Assembly: GCA_011045955.1 (NCBI GenBank)
Contig: DSBV01000109.1
Coordinates: forward strand, 42,934-106,933
DNA length: 64,000 bases
Direction: 5' to 3'
Origin: Bacteroidales bacterium
GTDB lineage: Bacteria; Bacteroidota; Bacteroidia; Bacteroidales; Tenuifilaceae
The number at the start of each line of letters is the position of its first letter. The stretch's first letter is position 1. The notes under the pieces were generated by a model. The model did not search any database and was not told the origin of the DNA. It saw only the letters and a list, made by a program, of their open reading frames with translations. Below are positions 49,879 to 57,117 of this stretch, piece by piece. Both the position numbers and the translations under genes were made by a program.

Positions 49879-49912
49879 TTTGTTATTCTGCTGCTTCATT
49901 TTAATAGATTTG
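49879..49912 (+). promoter_or_regulatory. Bacteroidota-type promoter for the chemosensory cluster
   Basis: TTTG (49879-49882), 22 nt, then TAGATTTG (49905-49912); start codon at 49931. Confidence 0.55.
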
Positions 49913-49930
49913 AAAAGATATAGAAATACT

Positions 49931-50311
49931 ATGGATTTCAAAGGATACGTTTTGGTGATTGACGATTCAGTTACGAATCAGGTACTTGTGGAAGCCCTAC
50001 TTGACGAAGAGGGAATCAAGGTGGTTACCGTGAGCAATGCCACTGATGCATTTAAACTTATTGAAAAAGAACTACCAGGCCTTATACTTTTGGATTTACT
50101 TATGCCCAATGTTACAGGAATTGATTTTCTTAAATCTGTCAAGCAGGATGAGCGTGTAAGTGCAATTCCAATTTTCATAGTAACCGCTGCTAACACTGAG
50201 TTTTACCGTAACCAGTGCGAAGTGCTTGGAGTAAAGGATTTCTTCCCAAAACCAGTTGATATACTTTTACTGGTTAAGAGGGTGAAAGAGGTTTTATTGG
50301 CTGGGGCGTAA
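49931..50311 (+). CDS. Single-domain response regulator
   Basis: MDFKGYVLVIDDSVTNQVLVEALLDEEGI...LILLDLLMPNVTGIDFLKSVK...IFIVTAAN...FFPKPVDILLL. Confidence 0.88.
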   Translation: MDFKGYVLVIDDSVTNQVLVEALLDEEGIKVVTVSNATDAFKLIEKELPGLILLDLLMPNVTGIDFLKSVKQDERVSAIPIFIVTAANTEFYRNQCEVLGVKDFFPKPVDILLLVKRVKEVLLAGA

Positions 50312-50322
50312 TTTAAATTGTT

Positions 50323-52056
50323 ATGAAAAAAATCAAGGAGATATCTGAACAGTTTACTGTAATTGATAGTCTTATAGTTGAGATACTAAATTGCGCCGCT
50401 GAGGATTTTTTAGGTCTTAACGAAAGGTTCAAGGAAGCATACGCAAAGTCAACCTCAATCTCAGCAAATGCAGAAGAGGTGTTTGCCGTATATGCTTCCA
50501 GCTATACTAGTGAATCGTTGCTGAATCTCAAGCTACTTTTTAAAAAGTTCAGTCAGGCCAAAAAAGAAACTAACAAGTACGCCGACTCCATAGTAAAAAG
50601 TATTGATGAGGTATATGATATTCTCGATTCCATTGACCTACATAGCAAAAACATTAACCAAAATCTCCTAACCCTCAAGTTTTTGCTAGCCAACCTTAAA
50701 ATTACAGGTATTGAGTCCAACTCAGTTGGAACTACCAAGGAAAAGGATGAACTTTTTATTGAGTTTAACCGATTAGTAAACAAGTCAAAACTAGCAGAGC
50801 TTGAACTTGCCAAGTCGCTTCATGGCAACATGAAGTTTCTTCGCGAGGGTGTTGATAGGGTTAAGAAGAACATGCGAAATGCTAATCAGCCTATTGGTAT
50901 TGCCATTGAAATCATTAACGAATCCATTCTGGTATTTTCGGAAAAACAGCAAGACCTAAGCCTCAATTTACCAAAACTCCAGGAGCATAATGCAAAACTC
51001 CGCGATTCCATTGACAGTATTATCACAAACCTCCAGTACCACGACATAATTCGCCAAAAAATTGAACACGTACAGGTATCGCATAAGGAAATACTAAATA
51101 ACCTCTCCTCTGAAGATGAAAGCGAGCAGAAAAACTATTTAAATCAGATAGCAGAGCTTGTTAACATTCAGTCGGCATTACTGGTTAGGGCAAACAAAGA
51201 GTATCAAAGAGCCATTGAGCAGATAATAGATAAGTTCAAGATCATTGGAAGCATTGCACAAAACATATTGAACCAATGCCGGGATTTAAAAAGAATACAA
51301 GAATCGGATACAGAGCAACCTTTTACAAATGTTGCGCATAAGCTTACAAATACTACGCTACCTGTTAGCAAATACCTTTCCTTACTGGCTAGGGTGAACA
51401 ACTTGCTTCAATCAATTAGGCATAACGTTAGTTTAATGGTTGAAGCCTCTGCTATTGATGATGACGCCAACCGATTCGGTGAGTTGCTGTTAAAAAGAAT
51501 AAAGCAGCCGGAGTTAATGCTTCAATCGAACCTAATTCAACAGATTGAAACAGTTACTTTTGACATCATTACCTCCCGAAGCCAAATAGGCACGCTATAC
51601 ATGCACCTTGAGTCCAAAATATCTGATATTGAGCGATTATCGGAATTGATTTCAGAAAATACTAAATCGCAGGAATGGGAATCAATTCCAACAACGCTTA
51701 AGGAGATAGCTAGTAACCTGCTAGAGTGCGATGAAAAAGTGAGTATTTTACTCAAGGAAAAGTTTCAGGCTAGTAATGATTTAGGCGATATCATCCACAG
51801 GGCTGTAAGCCAGGTTAAGTACTATGAAGTATTTGAGCTAAAAATTCTTGATGTAATAAAACTTCTAAACCAAATATACTCCACATTAACCGGTAAGGAG
51901 GAGAGCCAGTTCGATAGGGATGACCTGGAGTTTATGCGAAAGCTTTATACCATGGAGTCGGAACATCGGATACACAACATGGTTATTAAAGGGAATGCGG
52001 GTATCAACGATTTATCGGAAACAGATCAGGATGAGTCAAACATTGAGTTCTTTTAA
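50323..52056 (+). CDS. Coiled chemosensory accessory protein with CheZ-like DxxxQ motif
   Basis: Predominantly helical; LRDSIDSIITNLQYHDIIRQKIEHVQ resembles FQD-T-Q motifs; C-terminal LEFMRKLYTMESEHRIHNMVI. Confidence 0.6.
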   Translation: MKKIKEISEQFTVIDSLIVEILNCAAEDFLGLNERFKEAYAKSTSISANAEEVFAVYASSYTSESLLNLKLLFKKFSQAKKETNKYADSIVKSIDEVYDILDSIDLHSKNINQNLLTLKFLLANLKITGIESNSVGTTKEKDELFIEFNRLVNKSKLAELELAKSLHGNMKFLREGVDRVKKNMRNANQPIGIAIEIINESILVFSEKQQDLSLNLPKLQEHNAKLRDSIDSIITNLQYHDIIRQKIEHVQVSHKEILNNLSSEDESEQKNYLNQIAELVNIQSALLVRANKEYQRAIEQIIDKFKIIGSIAQNILNQCRDLKRIQESDTEQPFTNVAHKLTNTTLPVSKYLSLLARVNNLLQSIRHNVSLMVEASAIDDDANRFGELLLKRIKQPELMLQSNLIQQIETVTFDIITSRSQIGTLYMHLESKISDIERLSELISENTKSQEWESIPTTLKEIASNLLECDEKVSILLKEKFQASNDLGDIIHRAVSQVKYYEVFELKILDVIKLLNQIYSTLTGKEESQFDRDDLEFMRKLYTMESEHRIHNMVIKGNAGINDLSETDQDESNIEFF

Positions 52057-52069
52057 ATAAACCAAAAAC

Positions 52070-52378
52070 ATGTCAATGCAAGAGAAAAACTTTACCATCG
52101 AAAGGCAGAAAGGTTCATCGCTAGTTACCCTGAGTGGCGATTTAAGTCTCAATAATATCAGCGATATAAAGAGTGAACTGGTAAAGCTATTTAGTGAGGC
52201 TAAACCAACCGATTTGCTCATTAAAAACGCTGAGGTCGTTGACCTCGGTTTTATTCAACTTGTACGCTCCTTTAATTTCTCCATGAACGAGCGAGGCTTA
52301 GAATCGACTGTTAAGTTTGAGTTGACTGCTGACCAGCGCACAATACTTGAACGATCGGGCATAAAATCAGAATATTAA
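52070..52378 (+). CDS. STAS-domain protein
   Basis: FTIERQKGSSLVTLSGDLSLNNISDIKSELVKLFSEAKPTDLLIKNAEVVDLGFIQLVRSF. Confidence 0.8.
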   Translation: MSMQEKNFTIERQKGSSLVTLSGDLSLNNISDIKSELVKLFSEAKPTDLLIKNAEVVDLGFIQLVRSFNFSMNERGLESTVKFELTADQRTILERSGIKSEY

Positions 52379-52399: not shown

Positions 52400-52765
52400 A
52401 TGGCAAAAACAATACTAATTGTTGACGATTCCGATAGTATTCGAGAAGTAGTTCGGTTTACCCTTGAGAACGAAGGGTACAATGTGCTTGTTGGTGTTGA
52501 TGGCAAAGATGCCTTAAAACATCTTGATGGTAAAACAATCGATTTGGTGATCACCGATCTTCATATGCCTGAAATGGACGGCATAGAGCTCATTAAGCAT
52601 ATTAGAGCAATGCCGGAGTACGAACGCGTGCCAATCCTATTCCTGACTACCGAATCGCAAACCTCAAAAAAAATGGAAGCTAAAGATGCCGGTGCTACGG
52701 GATGGATTATTAAACCGTTTGTTCCTGCTAAACTCATTTCGGCAATTAATAAAGTGATTAGGTAA
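52400..52765 (+). CDS. cheY: CheY-like response regulator
   Basis: MAKTILIVDDSDSIREVVRFTLENEGYNVLVGVDGKDALKHLDGKTIDLVITDLHMPEMDGIELIKHIRAMPEYERVPILFLTTES...WIIKPFVPAKL. Confidence 0.9.
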   Translation: MAKTILIVDDSDSIREVVRFTLENEGYNVLVGVDGKDALKHLDGKTIDLVITDLHMPEMDGIELIKHIRAMPEYERVPILFLTTESQTSKKMEAKDAGATGWIIKPFVPAKLISAINKVIR

Positions 52766-54792
52766 TGGATAGCTTTAGGAATAAGTTTATAGAGGAGGCT
52801 GCGGAGCTTATTGATAAACTTGAAGTGTCCGTTTTAGAACTTGAGAAAAGCCCCAACGATGAGAAGCTGATTCAACAAGTCTTTAGGGTGATGCACACCC
52901 TTAAGGGCAACAGCGCCATGTTTGGGTTTGACCTTATCGATAGCTTTACGCACAACCTTGAGACCATATACGACATGATTCGTAATGGACAGCTCGAGGT
53001 AAGTAAGGATATATTGAACATAACCTTTTCATCGGTAGATCATCTCAAGGCTATGCTCGACGAGCAAAACTATGAGGATCCCGACTTTAAAACAGTTCAT
53101 GATGGCTTAATGGGGAAAATTAATAGTATCATTAACCCGGGTAACGCTGAAACTGTAACCCAAAAAACTGAAACTACTAAGGAAAAATCCGAATCGCTAT
53201 CTACCTACTACATTCTTTTTGAACCGAATGAGGATATTTTTAAGAACGGAACAAACCCTCTGTACCTTCTTGATGAGCTTTGCTCGTTGGGCGATCATAA
53301 GGTTTTTGCCCATTTCAACAGGCTGCCTGGAATAATGGAAATCATCCCAAACCTTTGCTATACCTACTGGGAGGTATTGCTGGCAACCGATCAGGACGTA
53401 AATGCCATTCATGACGTGTTCATTTTTGTTGAAACCGATTCAAAGCTTGAAATACAAAAGTTGGCGGAGGAGAACCTGCTTGCGGACAAATTATTTGTTG
53501 AAGAAGTTTCGCAGCTCGCAGAGGTTCAAAAGGATGTAGGATTGGTAACCATACAACGTCTGGCAACAAAAGCTGTTGCCCGAATCAATAAGGAAAAGGC
53601 CAAACAGTTCACTAAAGAGCGAATAGCCACTAAGGACAAAACCGCTGCAAGCATTCGCGTGTCGTCCGATAAGCTCGACCATCTCATGAACCTTGTGTCG
53701 GAACTAGTTACCACTCAGGCCCGTTTAAGCCTTTTTGCTGAGCAAACAAATGTTCCAGGATTGGCACCCATAGTTGAAAACGTTCACAAGCTAACCCGCC
53801 AGCTTCGCGATATTGCCTTTAGCATAGTTCTGATACCCATTGAAAACCTATTTGGTCGCTTTCAGAGGCTTGTCAGGGATTTGTCAGCCGAATTGCACAA
53901 AGAGGTCGATTTTATTGTTGAGGGAGCCGATACTGAACTCGACAAAACCATCATTGAAAACCTATCCGACCCCCTGATGCATGTTATCAGGAATAGTATG
54001 GATCATGGTATTGAGGATGCCCGGGTGCGCATAGCCAATGGAAAGCCTGCTAAGGGTAAGATTCACCTGAAAGCATTCTACTCCGGGGCAAGTGTAATAA
54101 TCCAGGTTAGCGATGATGGCGCAGGGATTGATACTGAAACCATACATGCCAAAGCAATTTCAAAAGGTTTGGTGCCATCGGATAAAAAGATGAGCAAGAA
54201 GGAGATTCTTGACCTTATCTTTTTACCCGGATTCTCTACAGCCAGAAAGGTAACCGATGTATCGGGCAGGGGAGTGGGTATGGATGTGGTAAAAAAGAAA
54301 ATTGCCGACATCAGAGGCGAGGTTGAGGTTGAATCGGAAGTTGGCAAGGGAACCACTATTACCATAAAGCTGCCCTTAACCCTTTCAATTATCGATGGGT
54401 TGCTGGTTAGTATTGATAGTTCCCCCTTTGTTATCCCTCTTTCTTCCATCGACAAGATTTATGCGGTTGACAAGGAGAGTGTATACAACTCTTTCAATAA
54501 CCTTGTAACCCTCGATGGAACTCAAATTCCATTCTTTAGCTTACGTAAGGAGTTTAACCTCAAGCCTAGCAATGAGGAACTAGAACAGGTTGTTGTAGTA
54601 AATTTTGAGGATAACAGGGTTGGCCTGGTAGTTGACTATGTAATTGGCGAATACCAAGCTGTGCTTAAACCTTTAGGGAAACACTACAAGAGTCACGATA
54701 TTTTCTCAGGAGCAACAATACTAGGCGATGGTACGGTTGCCCTAGTAATGGACACCAATAAGATTATTAAAATGTTTGCAACAAGGAAGTAA
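52765..54792 (+). CDS. cheA: Chemotaxis histidine kinase CheA
   Basis: HPt VFRVMHTLKGNSAMFGF; P3 ASIRVSSDKLDHLMNLVSELVTTQARL; DPLMHVIRNSMDHGIE; GRGVGMDVVKKKI; C-terminal CheW-like domain. Confidence 0.94.
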   Translation: MDSFRNKFIEEAAELIDKLEVSVLELEKSPNDEKLIQQVFRVMHTLKGNSAMFGFDLIDSFTHNLETIYDMIRNGQLEVSKDILNITFSSVDHLKAMLDEQNYEDPDFKTVHDGLMGKINSIINPGNAETVTQKTETTKEKSESLSTYYILFEPNEDIFKNGTNPLYLLDELCSLGDHKVFAHFNRLPGIMEIIPNLCYTYWEVLLATDQDVNAIHDVFIFVETDSKLEIQKLAEENLLADKLFVEEVSQLAEVQKDVGLVTIQRLATKAVARINKEKAKQFTKERIATKDKTAASIRVSSDKLDHLMNLVSELVTTQARLSLFAEQTNVPGLAPIVENVHKLTRQLRDIAFSIVLIPIENLFGRFQRLVRDLSAELHKEVDFIVEGADTELDKTIIENLSDPLMHVIRNSMDHGIEDARVRIANGKPAKGKIHLKAFYSGASVIIQVSDDGAGIDTETIHAKAISKGLVPSDKKMSKKEILDLIFLPGFSTARKVTDVSGRGVGMDVVKKKIADIRGEVEVESEVGKGTTITIKLPLTLSIIDGLLVSIDSSPFVIPLSSIDKIYAVDKESVYNSFNNLVTLDGTQIPFFSLRKEFNLKPSNEELEQVVVVNFEDNRVGLVVDYVIGEYQAVLKPLGKHYKSHDIFSGATILGDGTVALVMDTNKIIKMFATRK

Positions 54793-56205: not shown

Positions 56206-57117
56206 ATGGCTAAAAAAACTGAAGAATTAACCGATAGCGAACTGCTTGCTGAGCTCCAGCGCAGGTTTGAGCTTAACAAGAAAGCTCTCGATGAGCTAAA
56301 AGTTCTGAATGCTGAGTTGAAGCAGGTAAACAAGAAGTTGGAGGAGTCCGAAGCCTTGAAGTCGCACTTTATTTCAAACATCACCAATGAGATTATTAAC
56401 CCATTTACCTCAATAATAGGACTTTCCAAGGCAATACTCTCAGTTGATAAGGAGAACTGGAAAAAGGTTATTTCCATGGTGGCCCTAATCCACTCCGAGG
56501 CATTTAACCTCGATTTTCAGTTTCGGAATATCTTTGTGGCTGCTAAGATTGAAGCTGGCGAAATACAACCCGAGATCATGCAGGTTGATGTTAACAACCT
56601 GCTCGAAAGTGTTATTGAGTCGTTTAAGTATGAACTACGCAAAAAGAATTTAAAGGTTGAATATTCCTACAACTCAGATCCGTCCATTGATAACCCAAAG
56701 ATTTTTAAAACCGACCCCGAGAAGTTAAAGTTAATAATAGCAAACCTACTAAGCAATGCAGTGAATTTCAGTTTTGAGGGAGGCATTATTGAGATAATTG
56801 CACAGCGTACAACTAACCAGCTTACTATTTGCGTAAAAGACCATGGTATTGGCATTTCAAAAGAAAATCACAAGATAATATTCGATAGGTTTAAGCGACT
56901 CGATACCGGAATTAATTCTTTGAACCGTGGTCATGGATTAGGATTATCTGTAAATAAGGCTATTATTGATATGCTCAATGGTAGCATTGAAATTGAGAGC
57001 GAACTTGGCAAAGGCGCATGCTTCACAATTTCAATACCCGAACCCAACATTGACGTTGACGATTTAGCCACTGATGCCAACGAGATGTTTTTTGATCAGG
57101 ACGCAGAAATTTTTTAA
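56206..57117 (+). CDS. Histidine-kinase-like HATPase protein with atypical (His-less) dimerisation box
   Basis: Coiled N-terminus; KSHFISNITNEIINPFTSIIGLSKAIL; N-box IIANLLSNAVNFS; DHGIGISKENHKIIFDRFKR; GHGLGLSVNKAI. Confidence 0.88.
   Translation: MAKKTEELTDSELLAELQRRFELNKKALDELKVLNAELKQVNKKLEESEALKSHFISNITNEIINPFTSIIGLSKAILSVDKENWKKVISMVALIHSEAFNLDFQFRNIFVAAKIEAGEIQPEIMQVDVNNLLESVIESFKYELRKKNLKVEYSYNSDPSIDNPKIFKTDPEKLKLIIANLLSNAVNFSFEGGIIEIIAQRTTNQLTICVKDHGIGISKENHKIIFDRFKRLDTGINSLNRGHGLGLSVNKAIIDMLNGSIEIESELGKGACFTISIPEPNIDVDDLATDANEMFFDQDAEIF

Follow-up and report, generated by a model that had tools for sequence, protein, structure and literature searches.

Many chemosensory systems have no annotated phosphatase. 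Within the 64,000-nucleotide stretch of a Bacteroidales genome analyzed here (the window), a chemosensory operon encodes a helical protein, P0001, between a receiver protein and the CheY and CheA genes, and this raises the question of whether P0001 could switch off the signal. A preliminary description had assigned it to the open reading frame at 50323-52056, had likened its DIIRQ motif to the catalytic segment of CheZ, and had proposed either a phosphatase or a soluble signal hub. Both the frame (577 aa, plus strand, ATG start) and the motif were confirmed, the latter lying in LQYHDIIRQKIEHV at residues 237-250 (window positions 51031-51072). The features of P0001 and its neighbors are collected in Table 1.

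Table 1. Features of P0001 and of the surrounding operon, in window coordinates.
Feature	Position	Strand	Basis
P0001, soluble helical protein, 577 aa, MCP-derived, internally duplicated, with one CheZ-type site	50323..52056	+	ATG start
Decayed equivalent of the MCP hairpin tip, KNINQNLLTLKFLLANLKIT, residues 109-128	50647..50706	+	Alignment to the recognizable MCPsignal tips of L095-L097
CheZ-type catalytic helix, IITNLQYHDIIRQKIEHV, residues 233-250	51019..51072	+	Best-conserved window; Q238/D241/Q245/H249 in 24/24; profile finds CheZ genes
D241, counterpart of the CheZ catalytic Asp	51043..51045	+	Aligned with the CheZ Asp; polar helix face
Q245, counterpart of the CheZ catalytic Gln	51055..51057	+	Aligned with the CheZ Gln; polar helix face
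Degenerate second copy, VKYYEVFELKILDVI, residues 498-512	51814..51858	+	hhalign of N-half and C-half with controls; acid retained at 502, no Gln at 506 in P0001
YTMESEHRIH, residues 542-551, conserved motif opening the low-confidence tail	51946..51975	+	T543/E547/H551 in 24/24; pLDDT <50
Acidic C-terminal tail, ESNIEFF-type, residues 570-577, candidate CheY-binding peptide	52030..52053	+	F577 in 23/24; disordered in model
Receiver-only protein, upstream, alternative substrate candidate	49880..50311	+	Pfam Response_reg 8e-24; upstream position conserved except in L091 and L092
Small STAS-like ORF, conserved next gene	52070..52378	+	Synteny; no Pfam STAS match
CheY, presumed substrate; D9, D10, D53, T83 and K105 present	52400..52765	+	Pfam Response_reg 3e-30
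CheA kinase	52765..54792	+	Hpt, H-kinase_dim, HATPase_c and CheW domains

Single-sequence searches of Pfam, NCBIfam and the PDB with P0001 returned noise only. By Pfam, the protein has no transmembrane, HAMP or sensor domain, no MCPsignal match (PF00015) at E<=10, and no match to CheC or CheX, the phosphatases with an ExxN site. No match to the CheZ model PF04344 was found either, the score against NF041271 was 7.6 bits compared with a cut-off of 350, and the best of 18 family members reached only E 0.0011 against the curated CheZ models. Since P0001 fails the formal tests for both CheZ and MCPs, it is filed as neither.

The surrounding genes were largely as previously described, with the receiver at 49880, CheY at 52400 and CheA at 52765, but the ORF taken for a STAS gene did not match Pfam STAS even with the threshold relaxed to E<1. 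Its putative STAS identity rests on its position, on a weak STAS_2 match in a relative (L097, E 0.004) and on an annotated STAS gene in the same place in Shinella. Downstream of CheA, the window encodes CheW, CheR, a HATPase kinase, CheD and CheB. The kinase-like protein (56206-57117) showed no HisKA match at E<=1e-4, and its gene between those for CheR and CheD is conserved in the family loci extending that far. Genomes of the window's GTDB family encode a complete chemosensory operon, in many cases together with 10-22 MCPs. These bacteria are flagellum-less, and no FliM was found in any of the 27 genomes (G295-G320 and G000), which indicates that CheY acts on something other than a standard flagellar switch.

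The gene was present in 22 of these 27 genomes, including 20 of the 21 of good quality, and the one good-quality genome without it (G313) also lacked any MCP above the cut-off (best match E 0.005), an observation that we count in favor of a phosphatase. In all 20 extended family loci the gene occupied the same place, and the STAS-like ORF, CheY and CheA followed directly 3' in each of the 19 in which the contig continued; at two loci of genus g159 it likewise preceded these three genes. One family genome, G312, carries a copy (L079, 9805-11204) broken by stops and splitting, through either decay or assembly error, with the other operon genes intact; it is the only complete genome of its genus with a broken copy.

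When a class-wide sample of 295 genomes was searched with the single sequence, the window's own copy was the only match. Distant members emerged when 396 genomes of the phylum were searched with a profile; among them are four Bacteroidota proteins of 591-610 aa (L094-L097), encoded directly before CheY-CheA (L094) or before a small ORF followed by CheY and CheA (L095-L097). A further branch resides on plasmids of Alphaproteobacteria (Methylosinus, Agrobacterium, Shinella, Sphingomonas, Azospirillum and Rhizobium); of the six cases examined, five lie within a che cluster or close to one. Where annotated, its members are called "hypothetical protein," "chemotaxis protein" or "type VII secretion target"; the last of these labels, borne by a family member on a Shinella plasmid (L146, 5719-7443) that lies divergent from STAS-CheY-CheA, is probably a misannotation. 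We found no description of the family in the open-license literature, which is weak evidence of absence.

Chance alone would be expected to place a D-x3-Q somewhere in a sequence of this length; the argument for a catalytic site therefore draws on conservation and homology. No other 15-residue segment of the protein is as well conserved as the one that holds the DIIRQ copy, and D241 and Q245 rank joint first among all 577 positions. Both were identical in all 24 sequences of a set spanning Bacteroidota and Alphaproteobacteria, as they were in a Bacteroidota-only set (24/24). Across the two phyla only eight positions were invariant, namely, F29, Q238, D241, Q245, H249, T543, E547 and H551, while Y542, M544 and F577 each differed in a single sequence. 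This pattern indicates that selection maintains the CheZ-type pair, the YTMxxExxxH motif, which is perhaps a binding motif, and the C-terminal tail with its final F. In a helical-wheel projection, D241, Q245, Q238 and H249 lie at 130 to 175 degrees from the hydrophobic face, as do the D and Q of CheZ, and the invariant pair thus shares one polar helix face.

Homology of this segment to CheZ was detected in two ways. Aligned by hhalign to a set of 18 CheZ sequences, D241 and Q245 coincided with the CheZ pair; the narrow family reached a probability of 44-53%, the wide N-terminal half 90% and the distant members 92-95%, while reversed or heptad-block-shuffled targets did not exceed about 6%. A segment profile of 119 positions, built without any CheZ sequence, was also searched over the 396 genomes. 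Its top matches were six family members (E 3e-25 to 3e-38), and of the next 23 (E 9e-7 to 9e-5), 21 overlapped PF04344 CheZ loci that had been found independently. Together, these results support the CheZ-like segment proposed at the outset. The other two matches were MCPs with IQFQDVLRQKIDLV beside a cheY gene (L100, 9057-10415, and L101, 7684-9060); these MCPsignal proteins end in IQFQDVLRQKIDLV plus IELF and are single-hairpin receptors with the same CheZ-type motif. The view that CheZ is mainly proteobacterial is incomplete, since 50 of 396 genomes of the phylum had CheZ above the Pfam cut-off, although none of the 27 genomes of the window's family did; we thus reject an essentially proteobacterial CheZ.

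The suggested second, degenerate copy (QVKYYEVFELKILDVI) was likewise borne out. The N- and C-terminal halves aligned by hhalign with 93% probability (E 3e-7), compared with 8% for a reversed control and no more than 2% for 20 block shuffles, and the alignment sets DIIRQ opposite EVFEL. Position 502 is D or E in 20 of 24 sequences and position 506 is Q in only 3, so that most sequences retain the acid and most lack the Gln, and the residue counts support the proposal that P0001 has an active site and a degenerate one. The second half, which retains the fold and usually the acid without the Gln, probably acts as a partner in a structural or regulatory role. The sole sequence of the 24 with both residues is L023 (1483-3141, genus g159), whose second copy reads YYDVFEQKI; two active sites are possible there.

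The scaffold traces back to receptors. P0001 and its distant homologues align over their full length (hhalign E 2.6e-30 over 561 columns), and the latter match MCPsignal once or twice (E 5e-11 to 3e-15), with PF00015 above its cut-off in L094-L097 and the CheZ-type motif between the two halves. AlphaFold2 predicted helices at 60-131 and 138-261, with a turn at 131-138 just after the decayed tip. Used as a Foldseek query, the hairpin fragment (residues 58-266, mean pLDDT 87.5) did better than the full model, which gave no meaningful match: MCP cytoplasmic domains made up 10 of its top 11 PDB matches, none at E <0.001, and CheZ was absent among the 50 matches listed. A search of the PDB with the A1 profile also gave MCPs (E 4e-7), together with designed coiled coils, for which reason it is not used alone as evidence. 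Full-length homology to L094-L097, along with these fold matches to MCPs (E >0.001), identifies the scaffold as an MCP hairpin. The preliminary description would have taken clear homology to an MCP signaling domain as refuting its proposal. That homology holds for the scaffold; the catalytic claim nevertheless survives it, since D and Q are invariant while the MCP tip has decayed. Phosphatase and soluble hub, offered as alternatives, may therefore both apply, the protein being soluble, descended from an MCP and equipped with a CheZ-type site.

Taken together, we consider it likely that this soluble, internally duplicated descendant of an MCP hairpin is the signal-termination phosphatase of its CheA-CheY system and that it probably works like CheZ. 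Counted against a phosphatase are the failure of PF04344 and NF041271 to detect P0001, the hairpin matches to MCPs and not CheZ, and the presence of both a family member and CheZ in some distant genomes of the phylum (G509, G527, G627 and G663). Other phosphatases are rare in the window's family: CheX passed its cut-off in one genome, with weak matches in two more of the same genus, and CheC passed in one, G312, the genome with the broken copy. As this CheC belongs to a second che cluster, the coincidence is suggestive only, and we do not claim CheC as a strict replacement.

The MCP ancestry would also suit a soluble receptor-like input or scaffold that binds CheW or CheA, with the Q-D-Q-H stripe as a docking surface instead of a catalytic site. 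The gene order, which matches that of the rhizobial cytosolic receptor in atu0514-CheS(STAS)-CheY1-CheA (numbering of PMC12654446), and the invariant YTMxxExxxH motif agree with such a role. We nevertheless regard it as unlikely, because the tip through which MCPs contact CheW and CheA has decayed while D and Q have not, the family has true MCPs, and the segment profile retrieves CheZ and not MCPs in general. That P0001 replaces all receptors is rejected, since MCPs abound in the family. Still less probable is that P0001 sequesters CheY-P or modulates CheA-STAS-CheY phosphotransfer, as a phosphate-sink helper, without catalyzing hydrolysis; the STAS-like and CheY neighbors are conserved, and CheS (STAS) of S. 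meliloti alters both CheA-CheY1 binding and CheY1 dephosphorylation (PMC12654446), but the joint invariance of D241 and Q245 at CheZ spacing would be left unexplained. Chance resemblance of an unrelated coiled coil is barely credible even though D-x3-Q is frequent and coiled coils yield spurious matches, given that reversed and block-shuffled controls scored far below the observed values, that 21 of 23 blind matches were CheZ genes, and that the residues are invariant across two phyla.

If P0001 is the phosphatase, its disordered acidic C-terminal tail (DDxVELF/EFF) would first catch CheY-P. This tail is conserved, acidic and disordered in the model and ends in -LF or -FF, similar but not identical to the SQDxIDxLF ending of CheZ proteins, and it is from these CheZ tails that we infer the tethering. 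Helix 233-250 would then dock on the CheY active site, where D241 could pair with the conserved CheY lysine and Q245 could orient the attacking water, as in CheZ, whose Gln orients water and whose Asp pairs with the receiver lysine (PMC3035606). Release of phosphate would reset CheY, and the enzyme may be held at the receptor array by its MCP-like scaffold. The alphaproteobacterial relatives keep the same residues, which suggests that the family is probably an unrecognized chemosensory switch-off enzyme. A conserved protein with a CheZ-type site beside CheY and CheA would fill the phosphatase gap in two phyla, and labels such as "type VII secretion target" would need correction.

A tentative extension, which we think possible though not the likelier case, is that CheZ itself arose from an MCP-type hairpin. 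The duplicated MCP/D-x3-Q proteins and the MCPs ending in QFQDxxRQ would then be living intermediates, that is, a cross-phylum family of receptor-derived CheY phosphatases in which one protein serves as array scaffold and terminates the signal. The question of where CheZ came from becomes testable, since recognizable MCP domains persist in some lineages of the P0001 family and are gone in another.

Compared with known systems, P0001 shares with CheZ (PF04344) the Q-x2-D-x3-Q helix segment, a helical hairpin, a flexible linker, an acidic C-terminal tail and a neighboring CheY; CheZ of the Bacteroidota phylum reads LQVQDITSQQIAAVN where distant family members read LQFHDITRQQIEHVL. Unlike CheZ, which has about 214-360 aa, the 577-aa protein has a duplicated, MCP-derived scaffold, remains below the Pfam and NCBIfam cut-offs, and has H249 and the YTMxxExxxH motif as additional invariants. 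With the MCP signaling domain (PF00015) it has in common the MCPsignal matches of its distant full-length homologues and the fold of the modeled hairpin; unlike MCPs, it has no PF00015 match, a decayed tip and an invariant CheZ-type D/Q pair. A likeness by gene order links it to the rhizobial receptor Atu0514, whose counterpart in S. meliloti we take to be IcpA. The gene for Atu0514 also precedes those for a STAS protein, CheY and CheA, but its product is described as a chemoreceptor (PMC12654446). CheT of Sinorhizobium meliloti is a DXXXQ phosphatase outside the CheZ sequence family; it acts on one CheY and has no significant homology to known chemotaxis proteins (PMC12654446). It is described as resembling CheZ in predicted structure. 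CheT thus provides a precedent for a DXXXQ phosphatase outside the known chemotaxis families.
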